From Halopiger djelfimassiliensis (GTDB lineage: Archaea > Halobacteriota > Halobacteria > Halobacteriales > Natrialbaceae): DNA of 64,000 nucleotides. The translations under genes were made by a program, and so were the position numbers. The notes beneath the pieces are model-generated. The model did no database searches. It was not told the DNA's origin and saw nothing but the letters and a program-made list of their open reading frames with translations. How positions within the stretch are numbered: position 1 is the stretch's first letter; each line of letters begins with the position of its first letter. The DNA is taken from NCBI RefSeq assembly GCF_000455365.1, contig NZ_HG315684.1, positions 581,611-645,610 of the forward strand, written 5' to 3'. Of this stretch, positions 37,882 through 62,357 are shown one piece after another.

Positions 37882-38011
37882 CTGACTGTTCCATTGGATC
37901 CACTCGGTTGAACGCCCGACTACTCCCACGACGCAGTCGAAATACGTTTCCCGATATAGAGAGCCAAGTTTATCTGGAAACTGCGAAATTATGACATAAG
38001 GATCGCTACTC

Positions 38012-39448: not shown

Positions 39449-39511
39449 ATTCACTACTTTCTTCGGACAGCATTCTTATATACTATGGTCGGTAATGCAT
39501 GACCTACAGCG

Positions 39512-40441: not shown

Positions 40442-40483
40442 ATACCAGAGAAAATAATTACTCCTACCATCTATAGAGACAAG

Positions 40484-41944
40484 ATGAAAGAGAAAACCCG
40501 GAAAAACGTCGTTCTCGTTGTATGTGATACTCTCCGTCCCGACGTTCTTTCCTGTTATGGTGGTCCAGTCGAAACACCAGGTTTCGATAAAATAGCTAAA
40601 AACGGAACACTTTTCGAACGTGCATATGCGGCAGGTCCCGGTTCTTCGATCTCTCATGGAGCACTCTTTACCGGTCAGTATCCTTCAGAATCGGGAATCG
40701 TTGGACAAACTGAAGTTCCTCACGATGTCCCGCTAATAGCGGAACACCTCCAAAGTCGAGGATATAACACATTCGGAATTCCCGGCCCTGCCCGTATCGG
40801 TTCTGACTGGGGATACGACCGGGGATTCGAACAGTACCTCGAAAAATGGCATGATATTCCTTCTTCTCCAACGCTGACAGATTTACGAAAAGCTATTGAA
40901 GACCCCACTCTTGTCAAACCAATGCCGCGACACTTTCTACGAATGGCCAAACAGGGAGATGATAAACATACAGGATATCTATTCGACGTATTTATGCGCA
41001 AACTACAGGATGACTTCGACGAACCTTTCTTTGGATTTGCTAATTTCCCGTTTGTCCATGCTCCTTACGATCCGCCTCGGCCCTTTAAAGAGGAGGCAAC
41101 GCCTGGGCTCAGTAGAGGATCCTTCGGGTTAACCGACTTTCTTCCATGGATGGAGGAAACTCTTGATATCGAGGGAGTACGAGAAGATCGTGTCTACGAA
41201 GCCCAGACCGGACGGGGAGATCCGCAGTTTTTTGCTAACAACGACTGGCTGTCGGAGGCGGAACTTGACATACTGTGGTCGTGGTACTGTGCCTCTGTAA
41301 AATATCTTGATACGCATATACAGCGGCTATGGAAATGGTTCGAGGATACAGGGCATATTGAGGACACCATATTTGTTGTACTCGCTGACCACGGAGAGTA
41401 CTTCGGTGAACATGGACTTTTAAAGCACATGTACTTTCATTTCGAAGAGGCGCTTCATGTTCCACTGCTCATCGCCGGGCCAGGTGTCCCAAAGAACGAA
41501 CGTCGATCACAGTTTGTCTCCCTAGTCGACATCTTCGATACGATTTGCGATGCTGCTGGCATTGCGGCACCCAACGAGACGTCCGGCCGGTCGGTTTTCA
41601 GTGACGATCAACGAACTGCTGTCTTTGCTGAAAACGGAATACGTGATGTTCCCGACTTCTATGCAGATCATATGAGTAGCAGTCAGATTAAGAACTTCGA
41701 ACGGGGACGGAAATCGATCCGATCCGAGAATGCTCTGTTAGTATTGGATTCAGAAGGCGAAGTCTCGCTCTATGATCGACCAAACGAACAGAAAGTAACG
41801 GATATGGACGATAGCAGAACCTCTGAACTATACGATCGTCTTATCTCAACGTTAGGCGACGAATTCACCACGGCTGAAGGATATGGTGATGACCTCGACG
41901 AATCCGTCATGGATAACCTTCGAGAGTTAGGTTATATGGAATAA
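40484..41944 (+). CDS. AlkP-fold sulfatase-like protein 2
   Basis: 486 aa. VVLVVCDTLRPDVLSCYGG (metal Asp15), AAGPGSSISHGALFTGQYPSESG (nucleophile region, residues 49-71), FGFANFPFVHAPYDPP, and VVLADHGEYFGEHG with the Asp-His pair followed by HMYFHFEEALHVPLLIAGPG. The fold is certainly sulfatase-like, but C-x-P-x-R is replaced by a Ser-rich S-S-I-S-H, so the nucleophile is probably Ser or Thr. Could remove or transfer sulfate or phosphate on the glycan; no signal peptide, so it acts inside the cell. Ends in LRELGYME. Confidence 0.82.
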   Translation: MKEKTRKNVVLVVCDTLRPDVLSCYGGPVETPGFDKIAKNGTLFERAYAAGPGSSISHGALFTGQYPSESGIVGQTEVPHDVPLIAEHLQSRGYNTFGIPGPARIGSDWGYDRGFEQYLEKWHDIPSSPTLTDLRKAIEDPTLVKPMPRHFLRMAKQGDDKHTGYLFDVFMRKLQDDFDEPFFGFANFPFVHAPYDPPRPFKEEATPGLSRGSFGLTDFLPWMEETLDIEGVREDRVYEAQTGRGDPQFFANNDWLSEAELDILWSWYCASVKYLDTHIQRLWKWFEDTGHIEDTIFVVLADHGEYFGEHGLLKHMYFHFEEALHVPLLIAGPGVPKNERRSQFVSLVDIFDTICDAAGIAAPNETSGRSVFSDDQRTAVFAENGIRDVPDFYADHMSSSQIKNFERGRKSIRSENALLVLDSEGEVSLYDRPNEQKVTDMDDSRTSELYDRLISTLGDEFTTAEGYGDDLDESVMDNLRELGYME

Positions 41945-41947
41945 CTC

Positions 41948-43144
41948 TTACTCTCCCTGAACCGCATCGATGGCGGTCAGAAGTTCGTCCACGTTAACAT
42001 GCAGGTGTTCGTCTACTGCCTCACACTCAACGCAAGCATAGTCATGACCGAACCCTTCCGACATTTCGTAGTAGACGGGAACGAAATGTGATGCAAACAG
42101 TTCGATTATAGCGGCATCTTCCATATACATAAGTTCCGTTAGCCCTGCACCGTGAGTAGCAACTATCAGATCTGCGTCTTTGACCAGGCATTTCTGTTCT
42201 CGGAATGTTAAATTGCTAAACGAGACCGTGCAGAATCCGCGTTCGTGAAGTGCTGACTCTACTTCTTCCCAGTTCACTATCCGACGGGTATCCGCATCTT
42301 TTTCTCGAGAAACAAGTATCTTCGAAGTTGAATCGGTCTGCTTACAGTCGGTCTTCGACCATACTTGATCGCGCAACCACTCTAGAGCAAAGGGTTCCCG
42401 AAGATAGTCATCCGAAGTATCGCTCAAGCACCGTCGAACAGATGGGAGAACTAATCGATCTACATGTCCTCGATAGTTTTCCCCCCACTCGACGTATTGA
42501 CCCTCATATCCCAATAAATCGAGCGAATCAGTTACGAAAGATGGTGGATTTGGTGGGATGATCAACACTGGTTCTTCTCCAGTTTCTCGAATATAGTGCT
42601 CAATACCTTCCAGCTGTGTCAAACATTCCTCAGTCCAATGGCTATAATTCGTTCCCCACCTCTTCAGTAACGGAACAGCCAAATCATAACTGACATCGTG
42701 AGTATTAGATCGAGAAAATTTCCACGTGCCATAGCTCAAAGCTTCGACGATATCATAAGAGAGTTCCTGAGACGAGCGTTCATTAGCTGACTGCCAGTAG
42801 TTATACACGGCGAACTCGTTGGACGATGTAAGCTTGATACCCGGGTAGCCCACTAGCTCAACGTCCAAGACTTCAATTACGAATGGTGGATGGCGTTCGT
42901 GAGACCCGATAAGAGCCTCTATTTCGGGCGGTAGTTCGTTGTAGAACGTAGGTTCCTCAAACGTGAACGAACGACGGTCTCCGAATCGCCAGTATCTCGC
43001 TCGACCCTGATCAACTAAGTCCCGGTACGAGACTACACGATCAGCGAACAGGTTTTGACAGATCCGTCGTGCAATATTTTTCGATTGCTCTGGAGCATAT
43101 CGCTCTGCAATCGAACGGAGGGTGAGATCAGCACCGAATTTCAT
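41948..43144 (-). CDS. glycosyltransferase family 61-like protein
   Basis: 398 aa. The C-terminal half has GT61 (DUF563) marks: NYSHWTEECLTQLEGIEHYI, LIIPPNPPSFVTDSLDLLG, ILVSREKDADTRRIVNWEEVE and ATHGAGLTELMYMEDAAIIELF. GT61 enzymes transfer xylose, arabinose or GlcNAc in known cases. A UDP-xylose synthase-like gene lies 52 bp upstream on the same strand, so xylosyl transfer is an attractive guess. It converges with the sulfatase-like gene; only 3 bp separate the two stops. Confidence 0.8.
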   Translation of the reverse strand: MKFGADLTLRSIAERYAPEQSKNIARRICQNLFADRVVSYRDLVDQGRARYWRFGDRRSFTFEEPTFYNELPPEIEALIGSHERHPPFVIEVLDVELVGYPGIKLTSSNEFAVYNYWQSANERSSQELSYDIVEALSYGTWKFSRSNTHDVSYDLAVPLLKRWGTNYSHWTEECLTQLEGIEHYIRETGEEPVLIIPPNPPSFVTDSLDLLGYEGQYVEWGENYRGHVDRLVLPSVRRCLSDTSDDYLREPFALEWLRDQVWSKTDCKQTDSTSKILVSREKDADTRRIVNWEEVESALHERGFCTVSFSNLTFREQKCLVKDADLIVATHGAGLTELMYMEDAAIIELFASHFVPVYYEMSEGFGHDYACVECEAVDEHLHVNVDELLTAIDAVQGE

Positions 43145-43196
43145 TCATGATCTCTCATTTTAGTTCCCAAACAGGAGGTAATACGCCTAGCCATGA

Positions 43197-44138
43197 TTAA
43201 ATTTGGTCCTCGAAGTACTCAAGAGTCTTCCGGAGTCCCTCACGCAACTCGACTTCGGTTTCATAATCGAGGATTTGACGAGCCTTGGATAGATCAGGAC
43301 GTCGACGACTAGGATCGTCTTCGGGTAAAGGTTCGTGCGTAATGCCACTTTCCGTCCCGGAAATGTCGATGATAGTTTCTGCTAGCTCATGAATTGTCCT
43401 CTCATCTTCGTTGCCTAGATTAATGACCTCACCAGCCAATCCATCTGCTTGCATCGTTTTCTCGATTCCTCGAATGAGATCGGAAACATAGCAGAATGAG
43501 CGTGTCTGTGATCCATCACCATAGACAGTCAAATCTTCGCCTTTGAGCGCTTGTGTGATGAAATTCGGAACAACACGGCCATCGTCCATGTGCATTCTCG
43601 GTCCATATGTATTGAAAATACGGACAGTCCGAACATCAAGATCGTGTTTGTTATTATACGCTACTGTCAGGGTTTCACCGAACCGCTTAGATTCATCATA
43701 GCAACCCCTTGGCCCTCGAATATTTACGTTACCGTTATATGATTCATTTTGTGGATGGACCTCCGGATCGCCGTATACTTCACTGGTAGAGGCAAAGAGC
43801 ATCTTCGCGTCGTGTTCGACTGCATAGTCGAGAAGGTTTCTTGTCCCCTTAGTATTTGCTAATGCAATTCGGACAGGGTATTTCTGGAAATCCTTCGGTG
43901 AAGCCCGGGAAGCAAGATGATAGATTTCGTCGACTGGTGGTAGATCGAGTGGTTCACGTATATCTGCTTCGATAACTTCAAAATTGCCGCTCGAGGTTAG
44001 GTGGGATATATTTTCCCTACTACCACTCCCAAAATTATCTATACAAAATACATCGTAACCATCGTTTAGAAGTGACTCGCATAGATGGCTCCCAACAAAG
44101 CCGCTGCCACCGGCTACAAGGGCAGACTGAGATTTCAT
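43197..44138 (-). CDS. UDP-glucuronate decarboxylase-like SDR (UDP-xylose synthase)
   Basis: 313 aa. [19 protein letters not shown] (NAD site), [68 protein letters not shown] (Tyr-x3-Lys) and [12 protein letters not shown] match UXS enzymes motif by motif. It would decarboxylate UDP-glucuronate, itself the product of the AglM-like dehydrogenase, to UDP-xylose. The only oddity is N in place of W in the YWG-x-VN motif (YNGNVN). Probably co-transcribed with the GT61-like gene. Confidence 0.86.
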
Positions 44139-44223
44139 ACCACGATTAACTCAGTCCTGGTACTTATCCCGTTCGAAAAGCCAAAGACAATTCTTTTTGC
44201 CATTCCAGAATTCACCTACATAT

Positions 44224-45324
44224 ATGGCAGGATCTCTTCGAGTGCTTCTCGTAACACTAAACTATCCGCCACCGCCGGGTGGAATTCAAACTATCGTAAA
44301 AAATCTTGAAAGAGGGCTAAAAGAACTCGGGCACGAAGTGGAAGTTCTCCATATAGACAGGAGCGACTTCGACTGGTCGATTAGCGACTTACTCCCGAAA
44401 CCACGCTGGTACTACTCCGTTGAGGGATTCACTTCCCGAGATTACGTTTATATGAATGCCGTCTACCGCCAAACCGTTGAGGCCATTAGAACATTCGAAC
44501 CAGACGTTGTCCACGCTATGCACGTGAAGGATTGGCCCGCGATTGTCGCTGCTCAAGAACGAGATATTCCGACTGCACTCTCAACATATGCGCTGGAGTT
44601 AGGAAATCGACCTCTCGCCTCTCGAGCGATCCGAGATGTAGATGTCGTGCATGCCCTCACTGAGTTCACAGAATCGTTGATAGATGACGTTGCACCGGAT
44701 CACGTCAAAACGGAAATCATTCCTCCATCAATCGATATCGATGAATACCATCGTGCAGTACGGAGGATAAACGGAAACGAACGAGGTGATGTGGTAACTA
44801 TGTCTCGGTTTGTTGATCGAAAGAACCTCGAGACGATAATTAGAGCTTGGAAACAGCTTGAAGACGATGTTCGAGGTAAGAGAGAACTAGTTGTAGCAGG
44901 AGATGGAGAAAACCGAAACGAATTAGAGCGACTCGCTTCCGATACGGACGATATCCATTTCCCTGGCTGGGTTAACGGTAAAGAGAAACGTGAATTACTT
45001 GCCAAATCCGACGTGTTCGCGATGGTTCCACGTCGAAACGGGTACGACGTGGAAGGTTTTGGAATTGTATATATCGAAGCCCAAGCTGCCAAAACTCCCG
45101 TGATAGGATCGAAACACGGGGGGGCGCCGGAAGCCATTGATGATGCAGGTATTATCGTCGACAATGAAAACGATCCCAAAGAAGTCGCCGAGGCCATTCG
45201 CACGTTGATCGCAGACGAAGAAATCCGAGAGACAAAGCTCTCAAACGCCGCTGAACGGATTCGCAACTTCGACATTCCGCACGTCGCAGAACGCCATGTT
45301 GAAATGTACAATCGCGTTCGATAA
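44224..45324 (+). CDS. glycosyltransferase family 4
   Basis: 366 aa. N-terminal LLVTLNYPPPPGGIQTIVKNLERGLKELGHEVEVL, acceptor-domain VVHAMHVKDWP, and the donor domain VVTMSRFVDRKNLETIIRAW, LVVAGDGENRNELE, DVFAMVPRRNGYDVEGFGIVYIEAQA with the E-x7-E retaining motif (EGFGIVYIE). I start at the ATG at 44224; an in-frame ATG at 44197 would add nine residues. The donor sugar is unknown. Divergent from the UXS-like gene. Confidence 0.87.
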   Translation: MAGSLRVLLVTLNYPPPPGGIQTIVKNLERGLKELGHEVEVLHIDRSDFDWSISDLLPKPRWYYSVEGFTSRDYVYMNAVYRQTVEAIRTFEPDVVHAMHVKDWPAIVAAQERDIPTALSTYALELGNRPLASRAIRDVDVVHALTEFTESLIDDVAPDHVKTEIIPPSIDIDEYHRAVRRINGNERGDVVTMSRFVDRKNLETIIRAWKQLEDDVRGKRELVVAGDGENRNELERLASDTDDIHFPGWVNGKEKRELLAKSDVFAMVPRRNGYDVEGFGIVYIEAQAAKTPVIGSKHGGAPEAIDDAGIIVDNENDPKEVAEAIRTLIADEEIRETKLSNAAERIRNFDIPHVAERHVEMYNRVR

Positions 45325-45370
45325 ATCGATAAGCAGTACGCTTATTTGTCTTAGTTCCGGTCGTTCTCAT

Positions 45371-46429
45371 ATGAGTCGGCCTTCACATATTTTGGTCACC
45401 GGTGGTGCGGGGTTCGTAGGTAGTCACGCTGCGGAATTCTACGCTGAGCGGGGAGCCAAAGTAACTGTGTACGACAATATGAGCCGTGTTTCGTCCCTCG
45501 AGACGGCCGATGAAACGAGAAATACTGCGTCTTTTAACCGAGACTACCTCGAAGAGAACTATCCAGAGATATCATTCATCGATGGTGATGTACGCAACCG
45601 TAAACGTCTTTTCGATGTCGTTGAAGGCCACGATGCTATCGTTCATACCGCTGGACAAGTGGCTGTAACTGCCTCTTTGAACGATCCACATTATGATTTT
45701 CAGGTTAATGCAGAGGGGACGTTTAACATCTTAGATGCCGCTTCGGCGGCGGAAAGCGATCCAGCAGTTGTATTCGCCTCAACTAATAAAGTGTATGGCG
45801 ACAATGTTAACGAAATCCCAGTTAAAGAAGTGAACAGTAGGTACTGGTACGATAGCCCAGAATACAATGACGGCATACCTGAATCACTCTCTATTGATGA
45901 TTGTGAACACACTCCTTATGGCGTATCGAAATTAGCCGGTGATCTCTACGTACAAGACTATGCGGCGCGGAATGAGGTTGATGCAGCTGCGTTCAGAATG
46001 AGTTGTATATACGGACCCCGTCAGTTTGGGAATGAGGATCAAGGATGGGTTGCTCATTTCGCAATTAGTGCAAAACGAGATGAACCAATTACGGTTTTTG
46101 GAGATGGGAAACAAGTCCGAGATGTACTATATGTGACTGATCTGATTGATGCTTACGATTCATTCCTCTCTGATCCAACAAATAAACCAGCCGTATTCAA
46201 CATGGGAGGTGGACCAGAGAACACAACAAGTCTTCTTGAGCTATTGGAAATCCTAGGGGAAAACCACGGTTGGGAAGCGGATGTCACTTATGATGAGTGG
46301 CGGGAAGGAGACCAGAAGGTATACGTCTCAGATATTTCTCGTGCAAAGGAACATTTAAATTGGAAACCTAAAGTAGATTTTAATGAAGGTGTTGAGCGGT
46401 ATGCAGAATGGCTATCAACTATCGAATAA
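45371..46429 (+). CDS. CDP-paratose/tyvelose 2-epimerase-like SDR
   Basis: 352-aa extended SDR. ILVTGGAGFVGSHAAEFYAERG; HTAGQVAVTASLNDPHYDFQVNAEGTFN; FASTNKVYGDNVNEIP; TPYGVSKLAGDLYVQDYA; MSCIYGPRQFGNEDQGWVAHFAI. This run of motifs is characteristic of CDP-paratose 2-epimerase (RfbE) and relatives, which invert C2 of CDP-3,6-dideoxyhexoses. Whether this enzyme works on a dideoxy sugar here is unproven because the CDP-dideoxyhexose pathway genes (rfbFGH, rfbS) are not in the window. Confidence 0.8.
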   Translation: MSRPSHILVTGGAGFVGSHAAEFYAERGAKVTVYDNMSRVSSLETADETRNTASFNRDYLEENYPEISFIDGDVRNRKRLFDVVEGHDAIVHTAGQVAVTASLNDPHYDFQVNAEGTFNILDAASAAESDPAVVFASTNKVYGDNVNEIPVKEVNSRYWYDSPEYNDGIPESLSIDDCEHTPYGVSKLAGDLYVQDYAARNEVDAAAFRMSCIYGPRQFGNEDQGWVAHFAISAKRDEPITVFGDGKQVRDVLYVTDLIDAYDSFLSDPTNKPAVFNMGGGPENTTSLLELLEILGENHGWEADVTYDEWREGDQKVYVSDISRAKEHLNWKPKVDFNEGVERYAEWLSTIE

Positions 46430-46432
46430 TAT

Positions 46433-47347
46433 ATGCCATCGTTAAACAGTCCGGTTGCTATCTTTGTGTTTAACCGACCTGAGACGACTAAGAAGGTTTT
46501 TGAGATGATTCGAGATGTAGAGCCTGACACACTTTACGTTGTGGCTGATGGTCCGCGTGCTGATATCGAGAGTGATCAAGAAAAATGTCGACGAACACGT
46601 GCAATAACCGAAAACGTTGATTGGAACTGTACAGTTCATCGCGAATACGCAGTAGAAAATCTGGGTCTAAAGAGACGCTTCGTTACCGGCCTTGAGACGA
46701 TTTTTTCGAATGAAGACCGTGCGATTATTCTGGAAGACGATTGTGTTCCAAACCACGATTTCTTCATATTTTGCGATGAAATGCTAGAAAGATACGAAGA
46801 CGATATGCGAGTTTGGGATATCAGTGGCACAAACTATCTGGGGGAGTGGAAGCCTGAGCAACAGGATTACCACTTCTCGTATTATGGCGGTATATGGGGC
46901 TGGGCAACCTGGCGACGGGCATGGATGAAATACGATCCAAAAATGCGTCTTTGGACCGAAGAAGGGGTACAACATCGACTGAAAGATGTTCTTGCTAGTA
47001 AAAGTCAATATGAGTATCTTCGAACAGTATATGATCGTACCTATCAAGGCGTGATCGAAACATGGGACTATCAGTGGGGGTTCGCGAGACACGTTAATTC
47101 TGGTCTCTCTGTTGTTCCCTCTCGAAATCTAGTTACAAACGTGGGATTTGGAGATCATGCAACGAACACTACTAACGAGGGGTCAAACATGGCCAATATT
47201 CCCAGAGGAAAAATCGATTTTCCCTTGGATTTTCACGACTATGTAGCTGTCGATCGTACATTCGACGAAGAATTTCACAAATTACGAACGTCTTGGTGGG
47301 AACGAAATCCTGTTCTGAGGCGCCTTTCGGATACTGTTTTACGCTGA
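46433..47347 (+). CDS. GT-A-fold sugar transferase
   Basis: 304 aa. IFVFNRPETTKKVFEMI, LYVVADGPRAD, and RAIILEDDCVPNHDFFIFCDEML hold the nucleotide site and metal-binding acidic motif of GT-A enzymes. GGIWGWATWRRAW is a conserved segment in a group of bacterial and archaeal glycosyltransferases close to the O-antigen/HpnI-like sets. It starts 3 bp after the preceding epimerase stop, so the two are coupled and the transferase may use that epimerase's product. Converges with the FkbM gene, overlapping by 9 bp. Confidence 0.78.
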   Translation: MPSLNSPVAIFVFNRPETTKKVFEMIRDVEPDTLYVVADGPRADIESDQEKCRRTRAITENVDWNCTVHREYAVENLGLKRRFVTGLETIFSNEDRAIILEDDCVPNHDFFIFCDEMLERYEDDMRVWDISGTNYLGEWKPEQQDYHFSYYGGIWGWATWRRAWMKYDPKMRLWTEEGVQHRLKDVLASKSQYEYLRTVYDRTYQGVIETWDYQWGFARHVNSGLSVVPSRNLVTNVGFGDHATNTTNEGSNMANIPRGKIDFPLDFHDYVAVDRTFDEEFHKLRTSWWERNPVLRRLSDTVLR

Positions 47348-48034
47348 CTCTAATTCTTCGTCTGTCACTGCTGTCAGCACGTGAATTCCTCTGTCTTCGT
47401 ATTCCGTTTTTTTATCAACGACACTATATCCTGCATTGTTAAGTGCAGCACGAACATCGGACTCTGGCGAGCCGAAAACAGCATGTGTTTCGACAATTAT
47501 ATTCTCTGGCTTTTCATCAAGAGAGTTGATAATACTGATTTCCGCACCTTCACAATCAAGAATGAGTGTATCACAATTTGGTAGTTCATCTGCTGAGATC
47601 CTATCTGCATCTCCTGACTCTCCGTATATCTCTACCTTTTTAGATACAATTGCATGGTGAACCGTCGTCCATTCAGATACTTGAGCGAGTTCAAGCGTTT
47701 CGCGAACGAGTTTGACCTGATCGTGACTTCCTTCATACACCGTAACATGACCGGATGGTCCAGTGAGATTTGCGGCGACAGTACCAGAAACACCTCGCCC
47801 ACCACCGACAATGAGACATCTATCAGTAGTCGCAACGACATCTCGTAGAGCGGCAATGAGTGCACCCTCGTAATTTGGCTGTTCGTCAGTGATATCAAAA
47901 AGTGCTCGGTCTCGGACCGGAACGCCGTTGTATACACCAATCTTTCGTGGAAGTCGGGGCCGAAGATAATAATCATATATTCGACGTAGCATAGTATACA
48001 CTTTGAATCTCTCCAGAAACGTGGGTTGCTTCAT
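47339..48034 (-). CDS. FkbM-family methyltransferase
   Basis: 231 aa from the ATG at 48034 (a TTG 26 codons upstream overlaps the previous gene). CLIVGGGRGVSGTVAANLTGPSGHVTVYEG is a Rossmann-type SAM site, followed by DTLILDCEGAEISIINSL and NIIVETHAVFG. These motifs are those of FkbM-type O-methyltransferases, which methylate sugar hydroxyls. Methylated sugars are known in haloarchaeal N-glycans, so it may cap the glycan. Composition is AT-rich as in its neighbours. Confidence 0.8.
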   Translation of the reverse strand: MKQPTFLERFKVYTMLRRIYDYYLRPRLPRKIGVYNGVPVRDRALFDITDEQPNYEGALIAALRDVVATTDRCLIVGGGRGVSGTVAANLTGPSGHVTVYEGSHDQVKLVRETLELAQVSEWTTVHHAIVSKKVEIYGESGDADRISADELPNCDTLILDCEGAEISIINSLDEKPENIIVETHAVFGSPESDVRAALNNAGYSVVDKKTEYEDRGIHVLTAVTDEELESA

Positions 48035-48108
48035 AATGAATAGTCCAACAGTAACCAGATATTGATTCCTTCGGTCTATTACCCCAAGTGTTGATGTATT
48101 ATGATAAT

Positions 48109-49830
48109 TCAATCGAGATATTCTTGTAGCCAGATCTCGACTGTAGAGAGTTTTGCTAACGGATCAATATGGTTAGTTGTATGAGATTGATGTTGCTTCT
48201 TTAGTTCGTGTACTGCGGTACTATTTATAAATTCTCTCTCAGCTATATCATCAACATATTTATTCACGATATTACGAAGAGCACTACTTTCCCTATACCA
48301 GCGGGCATGTACGGGCTCATTTCCATTCCCAAACAAATCACTGGATTTGAATGAGATGTCGTGCATATATATGGATCGCTTTGGTGCTAAGTTGGTTCGT
48401 TCATACGGTATTTGGTCAATTCCATTATTATGCTGGCGAACAAGTTCCAATTTCAACTTTGAAGAGCTATGACTAAACATATTCATGTATTCGGTAACAG
48501 GACCCCACCGGTAAGCAGGTGGAACTGGAGTGGACTTCTCTATCACGTCACCGTCTGCATGTACACAACGAAACCCAGCAACGGTCCTTTCAATATTTCC
48601 TCTTGCATGGGCGTTTGAGTAATAATTACGGAAAATCAAATCTGTTGATTGTGTATATTTATTTTCATATTCGAAACGTTTATATTCGTCTTCGAAGGTT
48701 TCTCGAATGTTAGGAGTATTAGTCAAAACTCGCTCTGAAATATCAGAACCCCAGTACATAGTAAAGTTCTTCACAGGGTCACCCTGACAAAGATCGTAAG
48801 GTATGTCCTCACCGAATAACTCTCCTTGCCCTGCCCCCCAGAACACGACATTGAGTTCGTCTGGAAACCGTTCTAATTTCCCGGAGATACCGTGTAATTC
48901 ATGCCAAGATTGAAGTCCACTTGTCCGACGTATTGCTTCTTCAATATATTGGGAAGTTGATTCAGGACCATAATCAAGTATTTCATTCTCGACATTAAGG
49001 ACATCAGCTAATCGTCTCGCAGGTCCAATATTCACTCCACCGCCGGGGTTAGCATCATATGTATATGACGTGAGATTTATATCATATTCGGATAGTGCTC
49101 CACTCAATAACCGACTGTCAAGACCACCGGAAAGATACGTCCCTACACGAGAATTATCGGCAACTGTTTTTATAGCATGATCCGTAGCATCCATAAATGC
49201 ATTGTACACATCATTAACATAATTTTCATCGGGTGTCGAAGGACTAAACCTCCAGTACCGATGTGTTTCCATTGTTCCGTTACTCCAACGGAGGTAGGAA
49301 CCAACTGGGAGACACTTAATTCCTTGAATGAGGGTTTTCTTACCCCACGAAAAACCTGTTTGTAGCATCTCACTGATTGCTCTCACGTCAACGTTGGGAT
49401 CATCGAGTACAGGAACAAGTGCACCGGGATGTGTAGCGAATGCCCCCTCCTGTTCTGGAGTATAATAGATCGGTCTTGACCCAATTTTATCAGATGCAAC
49501 GATTAGTTCTTCATCTGTTGCAACAGCTAATACGAAAGAGCCGTTCAACTGAGAAAGATTTTCATTGGGATTGTCGATAATTTTTTCAAGATTCTCACTC
49601 AGACTCTTTGTTTCGTTTAGTCCAGTAATATAACCATATACCATCCCCTCGATAAGATCCGTCGAAATAACAGACCAGTCACCAGGATCATGATCACCGT
49701 GGTGATAGAATCCGAGTCGATACGTGTCCGTTTGGGATTCAGTGTACTCATACCATTGCTCGTACTTAAACCGATCACTGGACGAAAAGATACGGGATTT
49801 CCCTGAAGCGTCACCAAATAACTCAACCAT
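48109..49830 (-). CDS. asparagine-synthase-like amidotransferase
   Basis: 573 aa. N-terminal glutaminase-like half (LNGSFVLAVATDEELIVASDKIGSRPIYYT) followed by a synthetase domain with the ATP-binding PP-loop VGTYLSGGLDSRLLSGALSEY and a later GAGQGELFGED. The class II glutaminase Cys expected at position 2 is missing (protein begins MVELFG), so it cannot take nitrogen from glutamine in the usual way; it may use free ammonia or another nucleophile. In a glycan island the most likely role is amidation or acyl attachment to a uronic acid. Runs toward the FkbM gene on the same strand. Confidence 0.82.
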   Translation of the reverse strand: MVELFGDASGKSRIFSSSDRFKYEQWYEYTESQTDTYRLGFYHHGDHDPGDWSVISTDLIEGMVYGYITGLNETKSLSENLEKIIDNPNENLSQLNGSFVLAVATDEELIVASDKIGSRPIYYTPEQEGAFATHPGALVPVLDDPNVDVRAISEMLQTGFSWGKKTLIQGIKCLPVGSYLRWSNGTMETHRYWRFSPSTPDENYVNDVYNAFMDATDHAIKTVADNSRVGTYLSGGLDSRLLSGALSEYDINLTSYTYDANPGGGVNIGPARRLADVLNVENEILDYGPESTSQYIEEAIRRTSGLQSWHELHGISGKLERFPDELNVVFWGAGQGELFGEDIPYDLCQGDPVKNFTMYWGSDISERVLTNTPNIRETFEDEYKRFEYENKYTQSTDLIFRNYYSNAHARGNIERTVAGFRCVHADGDVIEKSTPVPPAYRWGPVTEYMNMFSHSSSKLKLELVRQHNNGIDQIPYERTNLAPKRSIYMHDISFKSSDLFGNGNEPVHARWYRESSALRNIVNKYVDDIAEREFINSTAVHELKKQHQSHTTNHIDPLAKLSTVEIWLQEYLD

Positions 49831-49911
49831 TTAGTCGAAAAGGTATTTGCTTGTTGTTAAAATTTTGGGCCCAAAGTCCGACATATGACACCACACTGTG
49901 GTAGTATTTAA

Positions 49912-51159
49912 TTACATTCCCCACATATCTTGGTAAATATTATAGTATTTATTTGCGACTTCTGTTTTCTTATACCTATCAACTGCTCGTTTTCGTGCTT
50001 TTTGACCGAGAATAGTGTTCCGTGCAGAATCCTCTATCACCCAATTAATTCCTTGTCGTAAACTTTCTATATCGTATGGTTCTGCGAGGTATCCGCTTTC
50101 TCTGTGGTCAATAATATCTTTTGGACCAGTCGCATCGAATGCAATGACGGGAGTTCCACATGCAAGTGATTCTGAAACGGTTTGGCCGAATCCCTCATAT
50201 CGTGACGGAACTACCATCGCATCAGCTGCACTATATAACAGCACTAAACTAGGATCGTCGTGAAGATAACCGACGTAATTCGATTGGAAGCCAAAATCCG
50301 GCGGGTCTTCAGGTTCTTCTGCCCCAAATATCACTAGCTCTAGGTCTACTGAAGTGGACAGTTCTTGGAGCGCCTCCTGGAGCAAGTCTGCGCCTTTTCG
50401 ATGGTCTCCCATCGGGTTTACGGCTCCAAAGAGTAGAAGTTGCTTGTCCTCCGGCAGATCGAACAACTCACGGCCCAGCATACTGTCTCGAGGCCTGTAG
50501 ACGTCGGTATCGAGTGCGTTCGGGATCACTTCGATTCGGTGATCGCCGAACAACGAACTCTTGCGGGCTTGGTCGGCGAGCCACGTGCTCGGCGTCACGA
50601 CAGTCAGATCGAGATCGTCCCAGTGGAAGTGCTTCCGATGCCATGTGAGTCGCGAGAGATCGTAGCTGGAATCGCTTCCGAGTTGTGGGCACGCCCCGCA
50701 CTTGTCTTCGAAGCCGTCACAGCCGTAGGCGTAGTGGCAGCCGCCGGTGAGCGCACTCATATCGGGAAGCCGCCAGACGAGGGGACGATCGATTTGACCG
50801 ATAGATCGAATGGACATCGCCCCGCGACCCAACCAGTTGAGGTGGACCACATCGGGGTCAATGCGTTCGATGGTCCGGTTCATCCGTTCCGGAAGCCAGT
50901 TGATCATAAATCCGCTCGATCGACCGTACCACCGAAGCGGTAGCATGTCCACGTGTGGACGGGCGAGACTCCATGCGGTCTCGAGTTTCGAGGACGGACC
51001 CGTTATTGTGGCGTCGTTCGTCGACTTTTCCTGAACGAGCATTCGTGAGTCGACGCCGATCGATCTGAGCGCGTGATGAATTCGTTTCGTCGCCGTCGCT
51101 GATCCGCCCGTATCCGAGGCGTTGACGAGAAGCGGACGAAGGTCTGTATTTCGAGTCAT
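49912..51159 (-). CDS. glycosyltransferase family 4, compositional mosaic
   Basis: 415 aa. N-terminal half: LLVNASDTGGSATATKRIHHALRSIGVDS, DVVHLNWLGRGAMS, and a Cys-rich insert GGCHYAYGCDGFEDKCGACPQLG that may bind zinc. C-terminal half: LLLFGAVNPMGDHRKGADLLQEAL, and PSRYEGFGQTVSESLACGTPVIAFDATG (E-x7-E). The Cys-rich WRLPDM...CGACPQL segment is typical of a GT4 subset. The DNA for the N-terminal half (above about 50.45 kb) is GC-rich like the chromosome and the C-terminal half is AT-rich, which suggests a recombination joint inside the gene. Confidence 0.87.
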   Translation of the reverse strand: MTRNTDLRPLLVNASDTGGSATATKRIHHALRSIGVDSRMLVQEKSTNDATITGPSSKLETAWSLARPHVDMLPLRWYGRSSGFMINWLPERMNRTIERIDPDVVHLNWLGRGAMSIRSIGQIDRPLVWRLPDMSALTGGCHYAYGCDGFEDKCGACPQLGSDSSYDLSRLTWHRKHFHWDDLDLTVVTPSTWLADQARKSSLFGDHRIEVIPNALDTDVYRPRDSMLGRELFDLPEDKQLLLFGAVNPMGDHRKGADLLQEALQELSTSVDLELVIFGAEEPEDPPDFGFQSNYVGYLHDDPSLVLLYSAADAMVVPSRYEGFGQTVSESLACGTPVIAFDATGPKDIIDHRESGYLAEPYDIESLRQGINWVIEDSARNTILGQKARKRAVDRYKKTEVANKYYNIYQDMWGM

Positions 51160-55870: not shown

Positions 55871-57130
55871 ATGGAACGACAGCGAGTGAGTCGACGGGGG
55901 ATCCTTCGGTCCGGGGGTGTCCTCGCGGCGATCGGAGCGGCGGGATGTGTCGACGACAAGAGTGAGGCAAAGCCGCAGACGGAGACGGGGAAAGACACCG
56001 ACGGAACGGAAACGCATGGCGCAAGCGAGATCGACGATCCCCCGGTCGCGGCCGAGGTGACGCCGGAAGACGGCGAGATCGGTGACCGATTCGGGGCGGC
56101 GATCGCACTCGAGGGGAGCACCTCCCTCGTTGGTGCTCCCGGCGACATCGATGCTACCGGATACCGTGTGGGCGCGGCGTACGGCTTCGATCGGACCGAT
56201 GACGAGTGGGTACAGCGCTCGGCACTGGCCCCGGACCGCGACGGTGTGGATATCGAGTTCGGGGCGGCCGTCGCGGTCGACGGCGACGCCGCGCTGGTTG
56301 GAGTCCCCTTCGACGAATCAGGTGGATTCGAGTCCGGATCGGCGTTCGTCTTCGAGCGCTCGGACGGGGACTGGCACCGGCAGGTAACCCTGTCACCCGA
56401 CGGCGGAACGAGCGGGGGGTGGTTCGGTGAGACCGTCGCGCTCGAGGGGTCGACCGCGCTCGTGGGCGCTCCCGGCGACGGCCCTGGCGTTGCGTACGCG
56501 TTCGAGCGAACGGATGGCGCTTGGGGACGATCGGCGACGCTCGAACCCGAAGCCGCCAAGCGCGGCGGCCGGTTCGGAACGGCGATCGCGCTCGAGGGGA
56601 CGACCGCGCTCGTGGGCGCTCCGGGCCCGGGTGTCGCGTACGCGTTCGAGCGGACGAACGGGGGCTGGCATCGGCGAGCGACGCTCGAACCGGCGGAGGG
56701 TGACAGCGCCGACGAGTTCGGTGCTGCGGTCGCGGTGGCGGACGACATCGCTCTCGTCGGCGCTCCTCGTCGCGAGTTCGCCGCGGACGGGACGGGAACG
56801 GCGTTCGTCTTCGAGCGCTCGGACGGGGACTGGCACGAACGGGCGATCCTCGAGCCCGACGGCGACGACCGCGGGTTCGGGACGGCGGTCGCGGTCGATG
56901 ACGGGATTGCGCTCGTCGGCGCACCAACTGAACGCTCCAACTCGGACGGGACGGGAGCGGCCCAGGCGTTCGAACGGCGTGACGGTACCTGGCACCGGCG
57001 AGCGATCCTCGCGCCCGAGACCCCCGACAGCAAAACAGGGTTCGGGAAGACCGTCGCACTCGAGGGGACGACTGCGCTCGTGGGCGCTCCCGACGACGGC
57101 CCGGGTGTCGCGTACGCGTTCGAGTTGTAG
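55871..57130 (+). CDS. Tat lipoprotein with FG-GAP-like propeller repeats
   Basis: 419 aa. The N-terminus is a twin-arginine lipoprotein signal (VSRRGILRSGG ... IGAAGC, lipid Cys near residue 27). The rest contains about seven repeats of 45-55 residues with the pattern (R/E)FGxAVALEGxTALVGAP ... GVAYAFER ... WHRRATLEP, as in FG-GAP/integrin-alpha-like beta-propellers. It should be exported folded and tethered outside the cell, perhaps for adhesion or ligand binding. The repeats are also very similar at DNA level, so the gene may expand by recombination. Located 192 bp after aglB. Confidence 0.85.
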   Translation: MERQRVSRRGILRSGGVLAAIGAAGCVDDKSEAKPQTETGKDTDGTETHGASEIDDPPVAAEVTPEDGEIGDRFGAAIALEGSTSLVGAPGDIDATGYRVGAAYGFDRTDDEWVQRSALAPDRDGVDIEFGAAVAVDGDAALVGVPFDESGGFESGSAFVFERSDGDWHRQVTLSPDGGTSGGWFGETVALEGSTALVGAPGDGPGVAYAFERTDGAWGRSATLEPEAAKRGGRFGTAIALEGTTALVGAPGPGVAYAFERTNGGWHRRATLEPAEGDSADEFGAAVAVADDIALVGAPRREFAADGTGTAFVFERSDGDWHERAILEPDGDDRGFGTAVAVDDGIALVGAPTERSNSDGTGAAQAFERRDGTWHRRAILAPETPDSKTGFGKTVALEGTTALVGAPDDGPGVAYAFEL

Positions 57131-57481
57131 CGACGCGCAGCGCGTCGGTGGGCGACTCGAGTGGCGCTCGGCAACCGAGAGCGCCCGTTAAGACTGTCAA
57201 TTGTCTTGACTAGTGACTGTACGGAATCAGCTGCAAAGACGAATAGGCCTCCGTAGTGGACAATTTGTGGGCCTAACAATAAGATCCCGTTATTCTCGTG
57301 AATTGAGGTCATCTATCATGTTTCTAGAGTATGAACGACTGCGGCAACGACTATATCTCCAAGGAATAATAATAGATAAGTATATTCCGATACATCTATC
57401 ACTACATTATACAATTATAAATAAAATTATCTGAAAATATAAGATAAATTTAATACCAGAGGTAACAACCATAGGGATGTG
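57131..57481. other. AT-rich non-coding stretch
   Basis: After the propeller gene the sequence turns strongly AT-rich, with runs such as ataattatagataagtat-type A/T strings at 57360-57450. No coding frame is supported. A TATA-like aatttaata at about 57448-57456 precedes the 44-aa peptide gene by roughly 26 bp. Such AT-rich stretches flank foreign or regulated genes in haloarchaea. Confidence 0.5.
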
Positions 57482-57616
57482 ATGTCCGCGAAAGACAGCA
57501 TGAAGGATTACCTCGCACAGCACCCACGAATGATCGGTGTCCTGTTCACGTTGTTCGTCCTGCTCAGTCAGGCGGGAACAGTCGTTGCAGGAACTAATAC
57601 CCAGGTCGGCCCGTAG
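57482..57616 (+). CDS. 44-aa single-helix membrane peptide
   Basis: MSAKDSMKDYLAQHPRMIG is a basic-acidic amphipathic head; VLFTLFVLLSQAGTVVAG is one membrane helix; the tail is TNTQVGP. From memory similar peptides of 40-45 aa with the same L-A-x-x-P-R-M-x-G-V-L-F-T...LLSQAG pattern recur in haloarchaea (DUF7503-like). It is too short for automatic calling but has a TATA box upstream and a stop well before the neighbour. It faces the CHAT protease gene tail-to-tail with a 55-bp gap. A role as a membrane-acting partner or substrate of the protease is my hypothesis. Confidence 0.7.
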   Translation: MSAKDSMKDYLAQHPRMIGVLFTLFVLLSQAGTVVAGTNTQVGP

Positions 57617-57671
57617 ATTAAAATCAATCTTACTGAATGTTATTGGTATAAAACATACGGTTTATCTGCAA

Positions 57672-59750
57672 TTATATTATAGCTGGTCCAACACCGTCAT
57701 TCCAGTGTAACTGGTCATCAATCAGTATTGGAAGTTCTATCCATATCAAGTATTCCTGGATTGAATCCGCTTCAACCCCAGAAAACGGTGTGAAGCCTGG
57801 CGTTAAATGACGGTCTGCAACCGACTTGAGATTTGATTCAGTTACCGAACCGAGTTTAAATTCTTTAGTCGAATAAGATCTAATTGAGAAACCAAATTCA
57901 TCTTCATTTCGCCTTTCAAGTTCAATAATTCCGGGTGCTCCATGATCCGTTTGAGCGATATCTACCGATCCGTCGCCGACGATGAGATACTGATCTCCGA
58001 GCGACGAGTTCTGTTGCGCGATCTCGAGCGCGCCCCGAAGCGGGAAACCGCGGTTGAGAAGTCGCGCCATCGTCTCGCCCGCTTCGACGGCGTCCTCGTT
58101 TGCGACGTCGCCGTACGTACTGACGCCGCCGAACGCGCCGCGGCGGGTGAGCGCGATTCCCTGTTCGTAGGAGCGACAGGCGTTCAGGAAGAACACACCC
58201 ACGTCGACCGACTCGAGGGATCGCACGTCGAGATCGGCGTCGGGACAGCGGAGGCCGTCTTCGGTCGCGTGACCGATGTAGTGGACGAAGTCGTAGCCGC
58301 CCTCGGAAAGCAACGACGCGAGCCGGTCCGAACTCACGCCGAACTCCGAGCGGATCTCGAAGGGCAGTTCCTCCCGGGTTCCGTAGGCTTCGTCGAGCAA
58401 ATCGTGCTCGTCGATCATGCGGGCATCGTTGCAGACGAGCAGGATCTCGATCGACTCGCTTCGCGCGCCGCGGTCGAGTTGGTTCCGGTAGGCCTCGATC
58501 GTCGCTTTCGACGCGTTCTGGGGCACGGCGTCGCCGAACCACGCGTGTTCCACTGATTCGTCGGTAACCGTCGGCACGACGAACTCCGAATCGCCGGTTA
58601 CCGACGGCGGCGAGCGTGTGGCCGCTGCCGAACGAACGAGTTGCGCGTTCGACGGGTCCGCGCTCGAAACGGCGTCCGCGACGGTCCCGGTCGCTTCGCG
58701 GACGAGGCCGAGTTCGTTGACGACGAACGGTATCAGTTCGATACTCTCCGGGTCGTCCGGAACGTGCGCCGTCAGCGGCCAGCGCGGTGCGTGGGAGTCG
58801 ATTACCTCGTAGGGAATCTCGAGGTACCGTTCCAGTCGTGCTGGCAGCGGCGTTTCGTACATCGATCCGAGGGCGAACGGCAACTCGTCTTCGAGAACCG
58901 ATAGCTCGAGCAGGTCGTACTGAAAGAACCCCTCGTTTCTGACGAGGCAGTCGAGGAAGAAAAAGCGCTTCAACAGCCTGGCGATGTCGTCGCCGAACGA
59001 GCGGGTGTCCGCCAGCGTGTACTCGAACTGGGGCGTCTCGAGTTTCGGTTCCGGTCCGGGACGGATCGTCGCGCCGAGAAAGAACGCCAGCGGCGCAGCC
59101 TGATAGAGCGGCAGATACTCCGGGGGCACCGTAACCGTGATCCCGTGGTCGTTATCCGGACGGTCGATGGAGTCCGGAACTTCGAGACGCTCCCCCAGTT
59201 CGATCAACGGCGGATGGCCACGCAGGGTCGGCCACGTCCGCTCCGGCGAGGTCGTCTTCAGCGCGGACGGCAACACCGAGATGGCGTCCATCATCGACTC
59301 GACGTCGGGCGGCGTCGTAATCGTCCCCGCCGGCCGATCGTGCAGCGATCTGGCACCGAGTTCGATCGTGGACTCCCGCTCGAGCGTGATGCGGATCGAT
59401 GTGAGCCCGATATCGACCGTCCCGGCGGTCTCGGTCCGACAGTACAGTTTGATCGGGCCGCTCAGGCCGACGAACTGGGTTCGCTCGTCGAGAGCAACCG
59501 TCTCACCGACGTCGAAGTTCGCTTCCGACCGACCCGTCCGATCGTGAAGCGTCACGGAAAAGAGCCGATCGAAGTAGAGTTCGTCCGTTTCGATCGTACA
59601 GGTCTTGTTTACCGGGAAACGGAACCCCTCGGGCTCGTCGGTTACTGACGAGACGACGCCGTCCGTCTTCACTTGGAGATGCCGTTGCTCGAGCGAGTCG
59701 TAGACCTCGAGCCCCGCAGGGTGAGTAGTTTCCTCGAAGGTAATCGTCAT
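57672..59750 (-). CDS. CHAT-domain (caspase-like) protease
   Basis: 692 aa from the ATG at 59750. The C-terminal CHAT domain (about 430-620) carries the catalytic dyad: His494 in YDFVHYIGHATEDG and Cys525 in GVFFLNACRSYEQG, then FGGVSTYGDVANEDAVEAG. CHAT proteases are clan CD peptidases that cut after a basic or acidic residue in defence and cell-death pathways (for example gasdermin-linked and Craspase systems). The N-terminal 430 residues are beta-rich and unrecognised; the last 70 residues are AT-rich in DNA and may be a sensor or substrate-binding tail. No signal peptide. Confidence 0.87.
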   Translation of the reverse strand: MTITFEETTHPAGLEVYDSLEQRHLQVKTDGVVSSVTDEPEGFRFPVNKTCTIETDELYFDRLFSVTLHDRTGRSEANFDVGETVALDERTQFVGLSGPIKLYCRTETAGTVDIGLTSIRITLERESTIELGARSLHDRPAGTITTPPDVESMMDAISVLPSALKTTSPERTWPTLRGHPPLIELGERLEVPDSIDRPDNDHGITVTVPPEYLPLYQAAPLAFFLGATIRPGPEPKLETPQFEYTLADTRSFGDDIARLLKRFFFLDCLVRNEGFFQYDLLELSVLEDELPFALGSMYETPLPARLERYLEIPYEVIDSHAPRWPLTAHVPDDPESIELIPFVVNELGLVREATGTVADAVSSADPSNAQLVRSAAATRSPPSVTGDSEFVVPTVTDESVEHAWFGDAVPQNASKATIEAYRNQLDRGARSESIEILLVCNDARMIDEHDLLDEAYGTREELPFEIRSEFGVSSDRLASLLSEGGYDFVHYIGHATEDGLRCPDADLDVRSLESVDVGVFFLNACRSYEQGIALTRRGAFGGVSTYGDVANEDAVEAGETMARLLNRGFPLRGALEIAQQNSSLGDQYLIVGDGSVDIAQTDHGAPGIIELERRNEDEFGFSIRSYSTKEFKLGSVTESNLKSVADRHLTPGFTPFSGVEADSIQEYLIWIELPILIDDQLHWNDGVGPAII

Positions 59751-59847: not shown

Positions 59848-61029
59848 TCACGTCCGGGATTCGGTTTCGGACCCGTTTTCGTCGGCCGCCGAACTGAGCG
59901 CCCGAAACACGATCGTCGGGAACCGCGGCTCGACCGTACTCGGGCGGCGACCGCTTCCGTTTGCCGGCAAGGGTACCCGCTCGATCACGCCGCGGTCGGC
60001 GAGTTCGTACAGGAACCGTTTGACCGTCCCGTCGGTCAGCGACGACCGATCGGCGATCTCGGTCGCGACCTCGCGGATCGGTTGCTCGGCCGTCTCGACC
60101 GAGACCAGATGCCACAGCACCTGCTGGCGCGTTTCCGAGAGCGCGAGCGCCCGGTCGACGTGGACGCCGTCCTCGGGGACGTCCGACTTTGCCCGCTCGA
60201 GATGTCGGTCGGCGACCCGCTCTGCGTCTGCCTCGCTGGCACATACCGCGGCTCCGAACAGCGCCGCGAGGGCGTCGTGGGCGTTTCCGTCGGCCCAGAC
60301 CGCCAGGTCGCGGACGGACTCGTGATCGAGCGCGCCCGCAGCCAGCCCGGTCGAGACGCGGTCCGTCACGACGTCGACGAGTTCGTGGTGGCGGTAGGCG
60401 GGGACGGTGACGGTCGTGCCGTCCCAGTCGTCGGGTTCGCGTTGGCCGACGGCGACGGTCGACGTGCTGTCCGCGACCGGAACCAGCAGTTCCCTGACCC
60501 GGTCGTACGACAACGTCTCGGGTTCGTCGTGGTGGTCGATCGCCACGACCGCACGCCGGTCGCGACGGCCGAGCAGGGCACCGAGTCGATCCCGCAGTTC
60601 GTCGGTCCCGATGCCGCTTTCGGGGACCGCGTCGGCCGAGACTACCGAAAGAACCGCACGATAGAAGGCGAACGCACTCTCGACGCGGCGGCCGTCGACG
60701 TAGACGAACCACGTCACCGGGCCGGTGCTGCCGGCCCGAGTCGTCGTGGCGATCGACCGGCTCGATTCGCCGAGTCGCTCGTTTAACGCATCGAACAGCG
60801 CAGTGACGATCGCGGACGTTCCCGACCCGGCCGGACCGACGACCGCAACCGGCGACGGTAACTCTCCGTTGAACACCGGCTCGAGCGCGTCGAGCAACTG
60901 CTCGAGAACGGGACCGCGACCGATCGGCTCCGGCCGGTGGACCACGGGACTGAGATGATCGCGGTCGACGATGACCGCTCTCCCCTGCTGTGCCGACCGC
61001 CGTCGTGCGATGCGCTCGTGGAGGTTCAT
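59848..61029 (-). CDS. Orc1/Cdc6-like ATPase with defective Walker A
   Basis: 393 aa. The AAA+ core begins PEPIGRGPVLEQLLDAL; the P-loop reads GPAGSGTSAIV (65-75), where the invariant Lys is Thr71. A Walker B-like VVAIDHHDE, and a C-terminal winged helix (SETRQQVLWHLVSVE ... DGTVKRFLYELADRGVIERV, about 300-365) follow. The layout is that of Orc1/Cdc6, but ATP use is doubtful, so it may be a DNA-binding regulator. Its ATG overlaps the glpC stop by one base, indicating translation coupled to glpC, and the CHAT gene follows 97 bp later on the same strand. Start at 61029 chosen for that overlap. Confidence 0.82.
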   Translation of the reverse strand: MNLHERIARRRSAQQGRAVIVDRDHLSPVVHRPEPIGRGPVLEQLLDALEPVFNGELPSPVAVVGPAGSGTSAIVTALFDALNERLGESSRSIATTTRAGSTGPVTWFVYVDGRRVESAFAFYRAVLSVVSADAVPESGIGTDELRDRLGALLGRRDRRAVVAIDHHDEPETLSYDRVRELLVPVADSTSTVAVGQREPDDWDGTTVTVPAYRHHELVDVVTDRVSTGLAAGALDHESVRDLAVWADGNAHDALAALFGAAVCASEADAERVADRHLERAKSDVPEDGVHVDRALALSETRQQVLWHLVSVETAEQPIREVATEIADRSSLTDGTVKRFLYELADRGVIERVPLPANGSGRRPSTVEPRFPTIVFRALSSAADENGSETESRT

Positions 61030-62357
61030 TACTTCGCGGACGGGTCGGGACCGACGAGGGCTGCTTCGAGTACCTCGAGCGTGTGGGTGATCTCGTAGCC
61101 GGTGCCGTGTTCCATCTGCATCGAACAGGTCGGACACTCCGTCAGACCCGTCCGGGCGTCGGCGTCCTCCATGTGATCGAACATCTCTTCACCGATTTTC
61201 ATGGATGTTTCGTAATTCTCCGCCTTCCATCCGTACGTTCCCGAAATCCCGGAACAGGAGTCCCCGACGTCGTGGGCGTCGACCCCGTCGATCGCGTCGA
61301 GCACTTCGAGCGTCTGGCCGTCGAGTCCCTGATTTCGGGAGTGACACGGCGCGTGATACGCGAAGTCGTCGAACTCGTCGCCGACGGACGTTCCCTCGAG
61401 TTCGCCCTCGAGGTCCTCGTGGACCCGGAGATACTCGATGGCGTCCCAGGTGTTTTCGGCGACGGTTTCGGTGCCGTCGAAGTCAAACAGTTCGGGGTAC
61501 TCCTGGCGAAGCGACATCGAACAGGAGCTACAGCCGGCGACGATGTCGGCCCCGTCCTCGATCGCCGCAGCGAGTTCGCGGACGTTCGTCTCGGCCGCCC
61601 GCCGGGCGTCCTCGAGCATCCCGTTTGCGAACATCGGCGTCCCGGAACAGGCTTGCTCGGGGACCATGACCTCGTAGCCGAAGTACTCGTAGACCCGGAC
61701 CAGTGCCTTCGCGACCTCCGGCGTGTTGTAGTTCGAGTAACAGCCGTGGAAGTAGGCGATCCGTTTCTCCTCGCTTTGGACCTTCGCGCCCCCGCGTTTG
61801 GTCCACCACTCGCGGAACGTCTCGGTCGCGAACTCGGGGAAGTCGCGCTCGCTCGTGATCCCGAGGAGTTTCTCACCCATCCACTTGGTTACGGAAAGCC
61901 CCATCACGAAGTTGGCCGTCCGCGGGAACATCGCGCCCAGCGGGGCGAGACGCCGGTAGTTCGCCAGTATTCTGTTCCGGAGGTATTCCCGGGAGAGTTT
62001 GCTCATGTTCTCGTCGACGTACTCCGCCCGGGCGGTGTTGTGCATCTGCGAGAGCGGCACCTCGGAGGGGCAAGCGCTATCACAGCGCATACAGTTCGAA
62101 CACTTCATCACCGAGTCGTCGATGTCGTGGTCGTCCTGACGCTTGAGCCGCCACTGCTCCGGCCCCTGAAACTTCGGCCCGGGGAACTCGTCGTCGACCT
62201 CCGCGACCGGACAGTTGGTGTCGCAGGTCGAACACTTGTAACAGTTGTCCGCGCCCGGTCGGAGGTCCATCTCCTCGGCCTCGGGGAACACCTGGATCGG
62301 TTCGAACTCCTCGTCTCCCGGTACGTGATCGTCGGTCGGTCGTTCTGCGTCGCTCAT
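61029..62357 (-). CDS. glpC: anaerobic glycerol-3-phosphate dehydrogenase, subunit C
   Basis: 442-aa membrane-associated electron-transfer subunit that passes electrons from GlpAB to the quinone pool. N-terminal two [4Fe-4S] motifs (CYKCSTCDTNCP and CSNCMRCDSACP), then two CCG-type cysteine-rich domains (YHAPCHSRNQG, GDSCSGISG, ECPTCSMQMEHG and GCSSCSMS). The ATG at 62357 starts MSDAERPTDDH. Forms the operon glpA-glpB-glpC on the minus strand, used by haloarchaea for glycerol metabolism. Confidence 0.93.
   Translation of the reverse strand: MSDAERPTDDHVPGDEEFEPIQVFPEAEEMDLRPGADNCYKCSTCDTNCPVAEVDDEFPGPKFQGPEQWRLKRQDDHDIDDSVMKCSNCMRCDSACPSEVPLSQMHNTARAEYVDENMSKLSREYLRNRILANYRRLAPLGAMFPRTANFVMGLSVTKWMGEKLLGITSERDFPEFATETFREWWTKRGGAKVQSEEKRIAYFHGCYSNYNTPEVAKALVRVYEYFGYEVMVPEQACSGTPMFANGMLEDARRAAETNVRELAAAIEDGADIVAGCSSCSMSLRQEYPELFDFDGTETVAENTWDAIEYLRVHEDLEGELEGTSVGDEFDDFAYHAPCHSRNQGLDGQTLEVLDAIDGVDAHDVGDSCSGISGTYGWKAENYETSMKIGEEMFDHMEDADARTGLTECPTCSMQMEHGTGYEITHTLEVLEAALVGPDPSAK

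Follow-up and report, generated by a model that had tools for sequence, protein, structure and literature searches.

A CHAT-type protease and a small Gly-Pro-tailed peptide encoded tail-to-tail: a putative two-gene module of Halobacteria

In Halobacteria, the genes for a CHAT-type cysteine protease and for a small peptide lie tail-to-tail, and the available loci support a genetic pairing of the two that is almost without exception. This pairing is more than synteny, as the partner persists while the neighbouring genes change. Comparison of the sequences suggests that the pair forms a two-gene protease/partner module of this class, in which the CHAT protease would recognise its own peptide through a C-terminal Gly-Pro (GP) tail and the peptide would most likely be a cognate substrate or regulatory ligand; the probability of this reading is put at about 0.58. 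The linkage alone would be compatible with the peptide being a substrate, an inhibitor or an activator. The window, the whole stretch of DNA analysed, comprises 64,000 nucleotides from Halopiger djelfimassiliensis, and the features of the pair are collected in Table 1.

Tail-to-tail pairing of the protease and peptide genes

An earlier sequence-only reading had described a CHAT gene and a 44-aa peptide gene as convergent and 55 bp apart, and its coordinates, length, orientation and gap were found to be correct. The peptide (MSAKDSMKDYLAQHPRMIGVLFTLFVLLSQAGTVVAGTNTQVGP) is a member of DUF7503 (PF24335), with a score of 78.5 bits against a cut-off of 27 in the Pfam profile search. The Pfam entry gives neither a function nor a link to CHAT proteases. 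The single transmembrane helix read earlier corresponds to one hydrophobic stretch, residues 17-36. Across the peptide alignment, the DUF7503 layout consists of an [HN]P[RK] motif, a helix with the element LLSQAG(T/S) and a tail of 6-9 residues that mostly ends in Gly-Pro; one subclade ends in NGGTIS/Y, with no GP. All three regions are under purifying selection in 52 main-locus orthologues (pN/pS 0.10-0.16), with a value of 0.10 for the tail. The BRE/TATA-like element upstream is probably the promoter of the peptide gene. No promoter motif shared by the CHAT and peptide genes was found in 47 pairs, the best 16-mer scoring 10.7 within a genome versus 10.9 across genera.

Table 1. Coordinates in the window of the protease gene, the peptide gene and their parts
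Feature	Position	Strand	Basis
BRE/TATA-like element, putative promoter of the peptide gene, TAAGATAAATTTAATA	57440..57455	+	position conserved among orthologues' upstream regions
44-aa DUF7503 peptide gene	57482..57616, stop included	+	Pfam PF24335 match, orthologue constraint
His14-Pro15-Arg16 motif directly before the hydrophobic helix	57521..57529	+	peptide alignment; family-wide [HN]P[RK]
Hydrophobic helix, residues 17-36, with conserved LLSQAG(T/S) element	57530..57589	+	peptide alignment
C-terminal tail GTNTQVGP	57590..57613	+	Gly-Pro end common to nearly all partner peptides, TM-less ones included
AT-rich gap between the two stop codons, 55 bp	57617..57671	.	sequence
CHAT-type cysteine protease gene, 692 aa	57672..59750, stop included	-	alignment, AF2 model, Foldseek
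Catalytic Cys525 codon	58176..58178	-	conservation across CHATs
Catalytic His494 codon	58269..58271	-	conservation across CHATs
N-terminal region, residues 1-360, beta-rich then alpha/beta	58671..59750	-	AF2 pLDDT 90.8

The start of the CHAT gene at 59750, M19 of the longest open reading frame, is supported by the relatives, whose alignment begins there and some of which have stops just upstream. The AF2 model of the protease (pLDDT 86.5) has the CHAT/separase fold and matches structures of SAVED-CHAT, RgpB gingipain, separase and Craspase in Foldseek. The claim of an intact His494/Cys525 protease is borne out by this fold and by the alignment, in which both residues are invariant in 38/38 divergent representatives; in a larger set, 181 of 184 CHATs possess both. 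The window protease gave no match in Pfam, NCBIfam or PADLOC, nor any sequence match in the PDB. For Pfam PF12770, 6 of the 38 relatives match, the best at E 0.012, and the cut-off is not reached. As none of the Pfam models scores above its cut-off for this protein, fold and motif are the basis of the CHAT assignment, and membership is claimed for the CHAT fold and motif class, not for family PF12770. The N-terminal region contains an invariant RGHPP motif at residues 177-181.

Among solved structures, SAVED-CHAT, a type III CRISPR ancillary protease (PDB 8tl0, Foldseek 2.3e-8), comes nearest in fold to the CHAT domain. Unlike that protein, the window protease has no recognised SAVED sensor, and its N-terminal 360 residues matched no solved structure at E <= 0.001 in a fold search of the PDB. 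No CRISPR gene was seen among the conserved neighbours in a general comparison of 39 loci for shared genes. The Clan CD fold is shared, by Foldseek match, with separase/securin and TPR-CHAT (Craspase), whereas no TPR or separase regulatory domain was identified in the window CHAT.

The linkage was assessed for the best 150 DUF7503 matches in the host family. Among the matches listed, a CHAT match lay within 2 kb of 122, all of them tail-to-tail (122/122) and with a median gap of 66 bp. The remaining 28 comprise 23 that proved to be tail-to-tail when the loci were read, two at contig ends, two displaced and one that was not fetched. At least 145 of the best 150 are tail-to-tail, and the check proposed with the sequence-only reading, whether a CHAT gene lies within 2 kb of the 44-aa family, was passed; no other orientation was seen in this sample. 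Viewed from the CHAT side, DUF7503 lies tail-to-tail within 400 bp in 71 of 80 named GTDB loci, a figure that rises to 75 with the inclusion of GP-tailed peptides that the DUF7503 profile does not detect.

The two displaced peptides, ∼4.5 kb and ∼32 kb from the CHAT gene, are still intact, which implies action in trans. A link in cis, through convergent transcripts that regulate each other or through Gly-Pro-stop as a translation-arrest signal, would make the peptide product unimportant. Such a link would suit the fixed convergent orientation and the short gaps, and some known arrest peptides, such as SecM, end in GP. However, it is disfavoured and scarcely probable, since peptides that have been displaced remain intact and selection is seen at the protein level: the tail is constrained, the units of the Haloplanus repeat gene L155 (see below) have zero nonsynonymous differences at residues 2-13, and the proline codons vary.

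The Gly-Pro tail across divergent partners

A GP-ending open reading frame lies opposite 130 of 176 CHATs, versus 1.4% of open reading frames in the background. CHATs in genomes without DUF7503 are often opposite another small GP-ended frame, and several partner peptides fall outside the DUF7503 profile. The Halorubellus partner reads NNPQ-TM-...TTPGP, and TM peptides ending in TTPGP, GIGP, DRGP, HPGP or NSGP stand beside the multi-copy CHATs of genomes G217 and G383, where a few divergent peptides have 2-3 residues beyond the GP. These two genomes contain a large polymorphic family, with as many as 12 and 9 divergent CHAT matches, respectively (L173, L174, L184-L198), many with their own GP-tailed peptide.

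Other partners are without a helix. These are found in Halococcus (...GASACTYSGP), beside the second copies of Halorubellus (...DGSSSPYTGP) and beside the second CHATs of the source genome and its Natrialbaceae relatives (...AKR(V/I)STYGGP). Seven second-CHAT peptides that were compared are 95% identical over their last 11 residues (pN/pS 0.10) and 42% identical at the N-terminus. In the source genome, the second CHAT (L205, G000:C3:222608-224665) has its TM-less convergent peptide, ending RAKRISTYGGP, only 8 bp away, an arrangement conserved across Natrialbaceae. Haloplanus-type genomes have, in place of the helix, an amplified tail in which a 13-aa unit, for example YTADGNGGGISGP, is present 2-13 times, and two Haloplanus congeners retain the helix, with tails AISGP and ATSGP. 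Protein-level selection on the unit is strong: among the units of the 13-unit gene L155, residues 2-13 show a pS of 0.58 and not a single nonsynonymous difference; over the same residues, seven compared units of the 10-unit gene L159 give a pN/pS of 0.05. In a tree of the CHATs, GP partners occur on both sides of the deepest fork and TM-less partners in three separate places; some TM peptides were wrongly classed as TM-less by a simple cut-off on hydrophobicity, and the tree kept clear cases only. Since GP peptides without a helix are found in three distinct CHAT clades, it is the tail and not the helix that the partners have in common, and the helix is dispensable.

This distribution does not favour the minimal pore suggested by the sequence-only reading. 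Related CHATs in Haloplanus, in Halococcus and at the second locus of the source genome lie opposite peptides that have no TM helix and retain the GP tail alone, and membrane insertion therefore cannot be the general function; with the tail as the shared element, a minimal pore is disfavoured. The other part of that suggestion, an anchor controlled by the protease, is possible for the TM form. CHAT proteases activate gasdermins, which are membrane-pore proteins, in bacterial defence. Analogous to these systems, a CHAT-type protease is genetically paired with a protein containing a hydrophobic segment. In contrast to them, the haloarchaeal partner is usually ∼40-50 aa, far below gasdermin size, its gene is convergent rather than co-directional, and it is TM-less in some lineages. 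The 44-aa peptide matches DUF7503 only, and not a gasdermin fold, and related loci have TM-less partners. The likeness thus holds only as a CHAT protease with a partner.

In a gasdermin-like scheme, as in the earlier idea, CHAT would free a pore-forming or toxic helix by cutting the peptide, for instance behind the Arg/Lys of [HN]P[RK]. The motif lies directly before the one hydrophobic helix, in which polar residues (SQxG) are conserved, and separase and RgpB, both fold matches, cleave after Arg. Nevertheless, the partners in three separate clades have neither helix nor HPR and keep the tail, and the scheme is considered very unlikely; the intact peptides that adjoin frameshifted CHAT open reading frames (e.g., L246 and L236) carry little weight either way. 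Cleavage with Arg at P1 of the HPR motif was downgraded as a candidate because the TM-less partners are without the motif. Alternatively, the helix could be a Sec signal and the tail (8-9 aa with a GP end) a signal released outside the cell, the Haloplanus concatemer being a multi-copy precursor. The layout of the peptide does resemble that of a signal peptide, an AxA-type end preceding the tail, and the tandem repeats resemble pheromone precursors. However, the TM-less versions contain no recognisable export signal, the CHAT sequence is without a signal sequence, and the helix is strongly conserved, unlike typical signal peptides; a secreted signal is accordingly held to be highly improbable.

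Catalytic dyad and proposed mechanism

The catalytic dyad is intact in 135/135 CHATs with a GP-ending open reading frame opposite, and the three CHATs without the catalytic residues have no recognisable partner. The association gives a Fisher p of 0.003 from approximate counts, and represents a single evolutionary event since the three dead CHATs form one clade. One of these three, the third CHAT relative of the source genome (L206, G000:C3:867531-869501), has both the catalytic His and Cys replaced, and no partner peptide was seen beside it.

The linkage of the peptide to catalytically intact CHATs would also fit a role as inhibitor or tether, in which the peptide, as a pseudosubstrate in the manner of securin toward separase, would block the protease until stress removes it, the TM form doing so at the membrane. 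Separase is among the closest folds, and a tail with a free C-terminus would be apt for an inhibitor that resembles the product. Yet several catalytically intact CHAT clades are without a recognisable peptide, and an obligatory inhibitor is therefore not needed there; moreover, the internal GP repeats of Haloplanus misfit a mechanism that needs a free C-terminus. Such a role is judged unlikely. One separate clade with an intact dyad and no recognisable peptide comprises L165, L171, L172 and L175-L181, and among those checked a co-directional gene for an HTH-type regulator of ∼280 aa follows CHAT in L165, L172, L175, L177-L179 and L181. Such peptide-less CHATs are also relevant to a comparison with toxin-antitoxin modules, in which one product would be toxic and the other neutralising. 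Many CHAT columns separate GP from non-GP tails, and these were not used because they are confounded by clade.

In the preferred reading of a protease with its cognate GP-tailed partner, the CHAT protease would work with its own small peptide, made from the separate convergent gene, and recognise the Gly-Pro tail at its C-terminus. The common form would have this tail placed at the membrane by the single hydrophobic helix; in the other forms, a soluble carrier or a tandem concatemer would present it. A stimulus may be sensed, perhaps by the N-terminal region of CHAT, upon which the protease would engage or cut the tail and so change the state of the peptide or of the protease itself.

Distribution, genomic setting and possible role

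DUF7503 is present in 121 of 125 genomes of the host family and a CHAT relative in all 125. Across the class, 336 of 392 surveyed genomes contain DUF7503 (86%) and 366 contain CHAT (93%), and all 26 genomes without CHAT are also without DUF7503 (Fisher p = 2e-25 for co-occurrence in the 392 genomes, a value that ignores phylogeny). DUF7503 was not found outside Halobacteria in a sample of the phylum; a distant CHAT relative occurs there in four genomes of one other family, with no convincing GP peptide beside it. A prevalence of 86% for DUF7503 and 93% for CHAT would be more typical of core physiology or a stress response than of a patchy defence system, and a role in defence or cell death is hypothetical. 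PADLOC gave no defence-system match for the peptide. The main locus is syntenic at glpABC/aglB and does not lie in a defence island. At 13 of the 39 compared loci, the pair has glp genes near its protease end and, past the peptide gene, an oligosaccharyltransferase-type locus; none of the other genes recurs at all 39. CHAT/peptide pairs also recur as paralogues within single genomes, and some lie on haloarchaeal megaplasmids; no relative was found in viral contigs.

Haloferax volcanii has a high basal, salt-stress-linked caspase-like activity for which the gene is not known, and archaeal genomes are said to be without clear caspase homologues (PMC3615174). The CHAT protease is a candidate gene for this orphan activity. 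DUF7503 is present in H. volcanii, which served as a control, and the CHAT/peptide pair was seen in four other Haloferax species, so the question of the missing gene is directly testable in a tractable strain. A broader proposal, in which each haloarchaeal CHAT reads a cognate C-terminal GP tail on a membrane helix, soluble carrier or concatemer, and this new class of protease signalling underlies the stress-linked caspase-like activity, is possible and is put forward tentatively. No paper describing the pair was found in the open-access library searched, nor any on DUF7503, on a CHAT protease in haloarchaea or on a CHAT domain in H. volcanii. An unannotated peptide family of ∼86% of sampled haloarchaeal genomes thereby gains a function-bearing context, as does a caspase-fold protease that is mostly a "hypothetical protein" in the plasmid records seen, in a pair conserved in nearly all salt-loving archaea. 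With the tail constant and its carrier naturally exchanged, these comparisons point to the part of the peptide that merits study.

Elsewhere in the window, the strand of the peptide gene also encodes, upstream of it, an FG-GAP repeat protein with a possible lipobox (55871-57130). Adjoining the CHAT gene is a gene for an AAA+/winged-helix protein (59848-61137) that is Orc1/Cdc6-like, below the family cut-off. The region 38000-50000 has a low GC content, 0.40-0.50 versus 0.60-0.70 elsewhere, and is possibly an integrated element.
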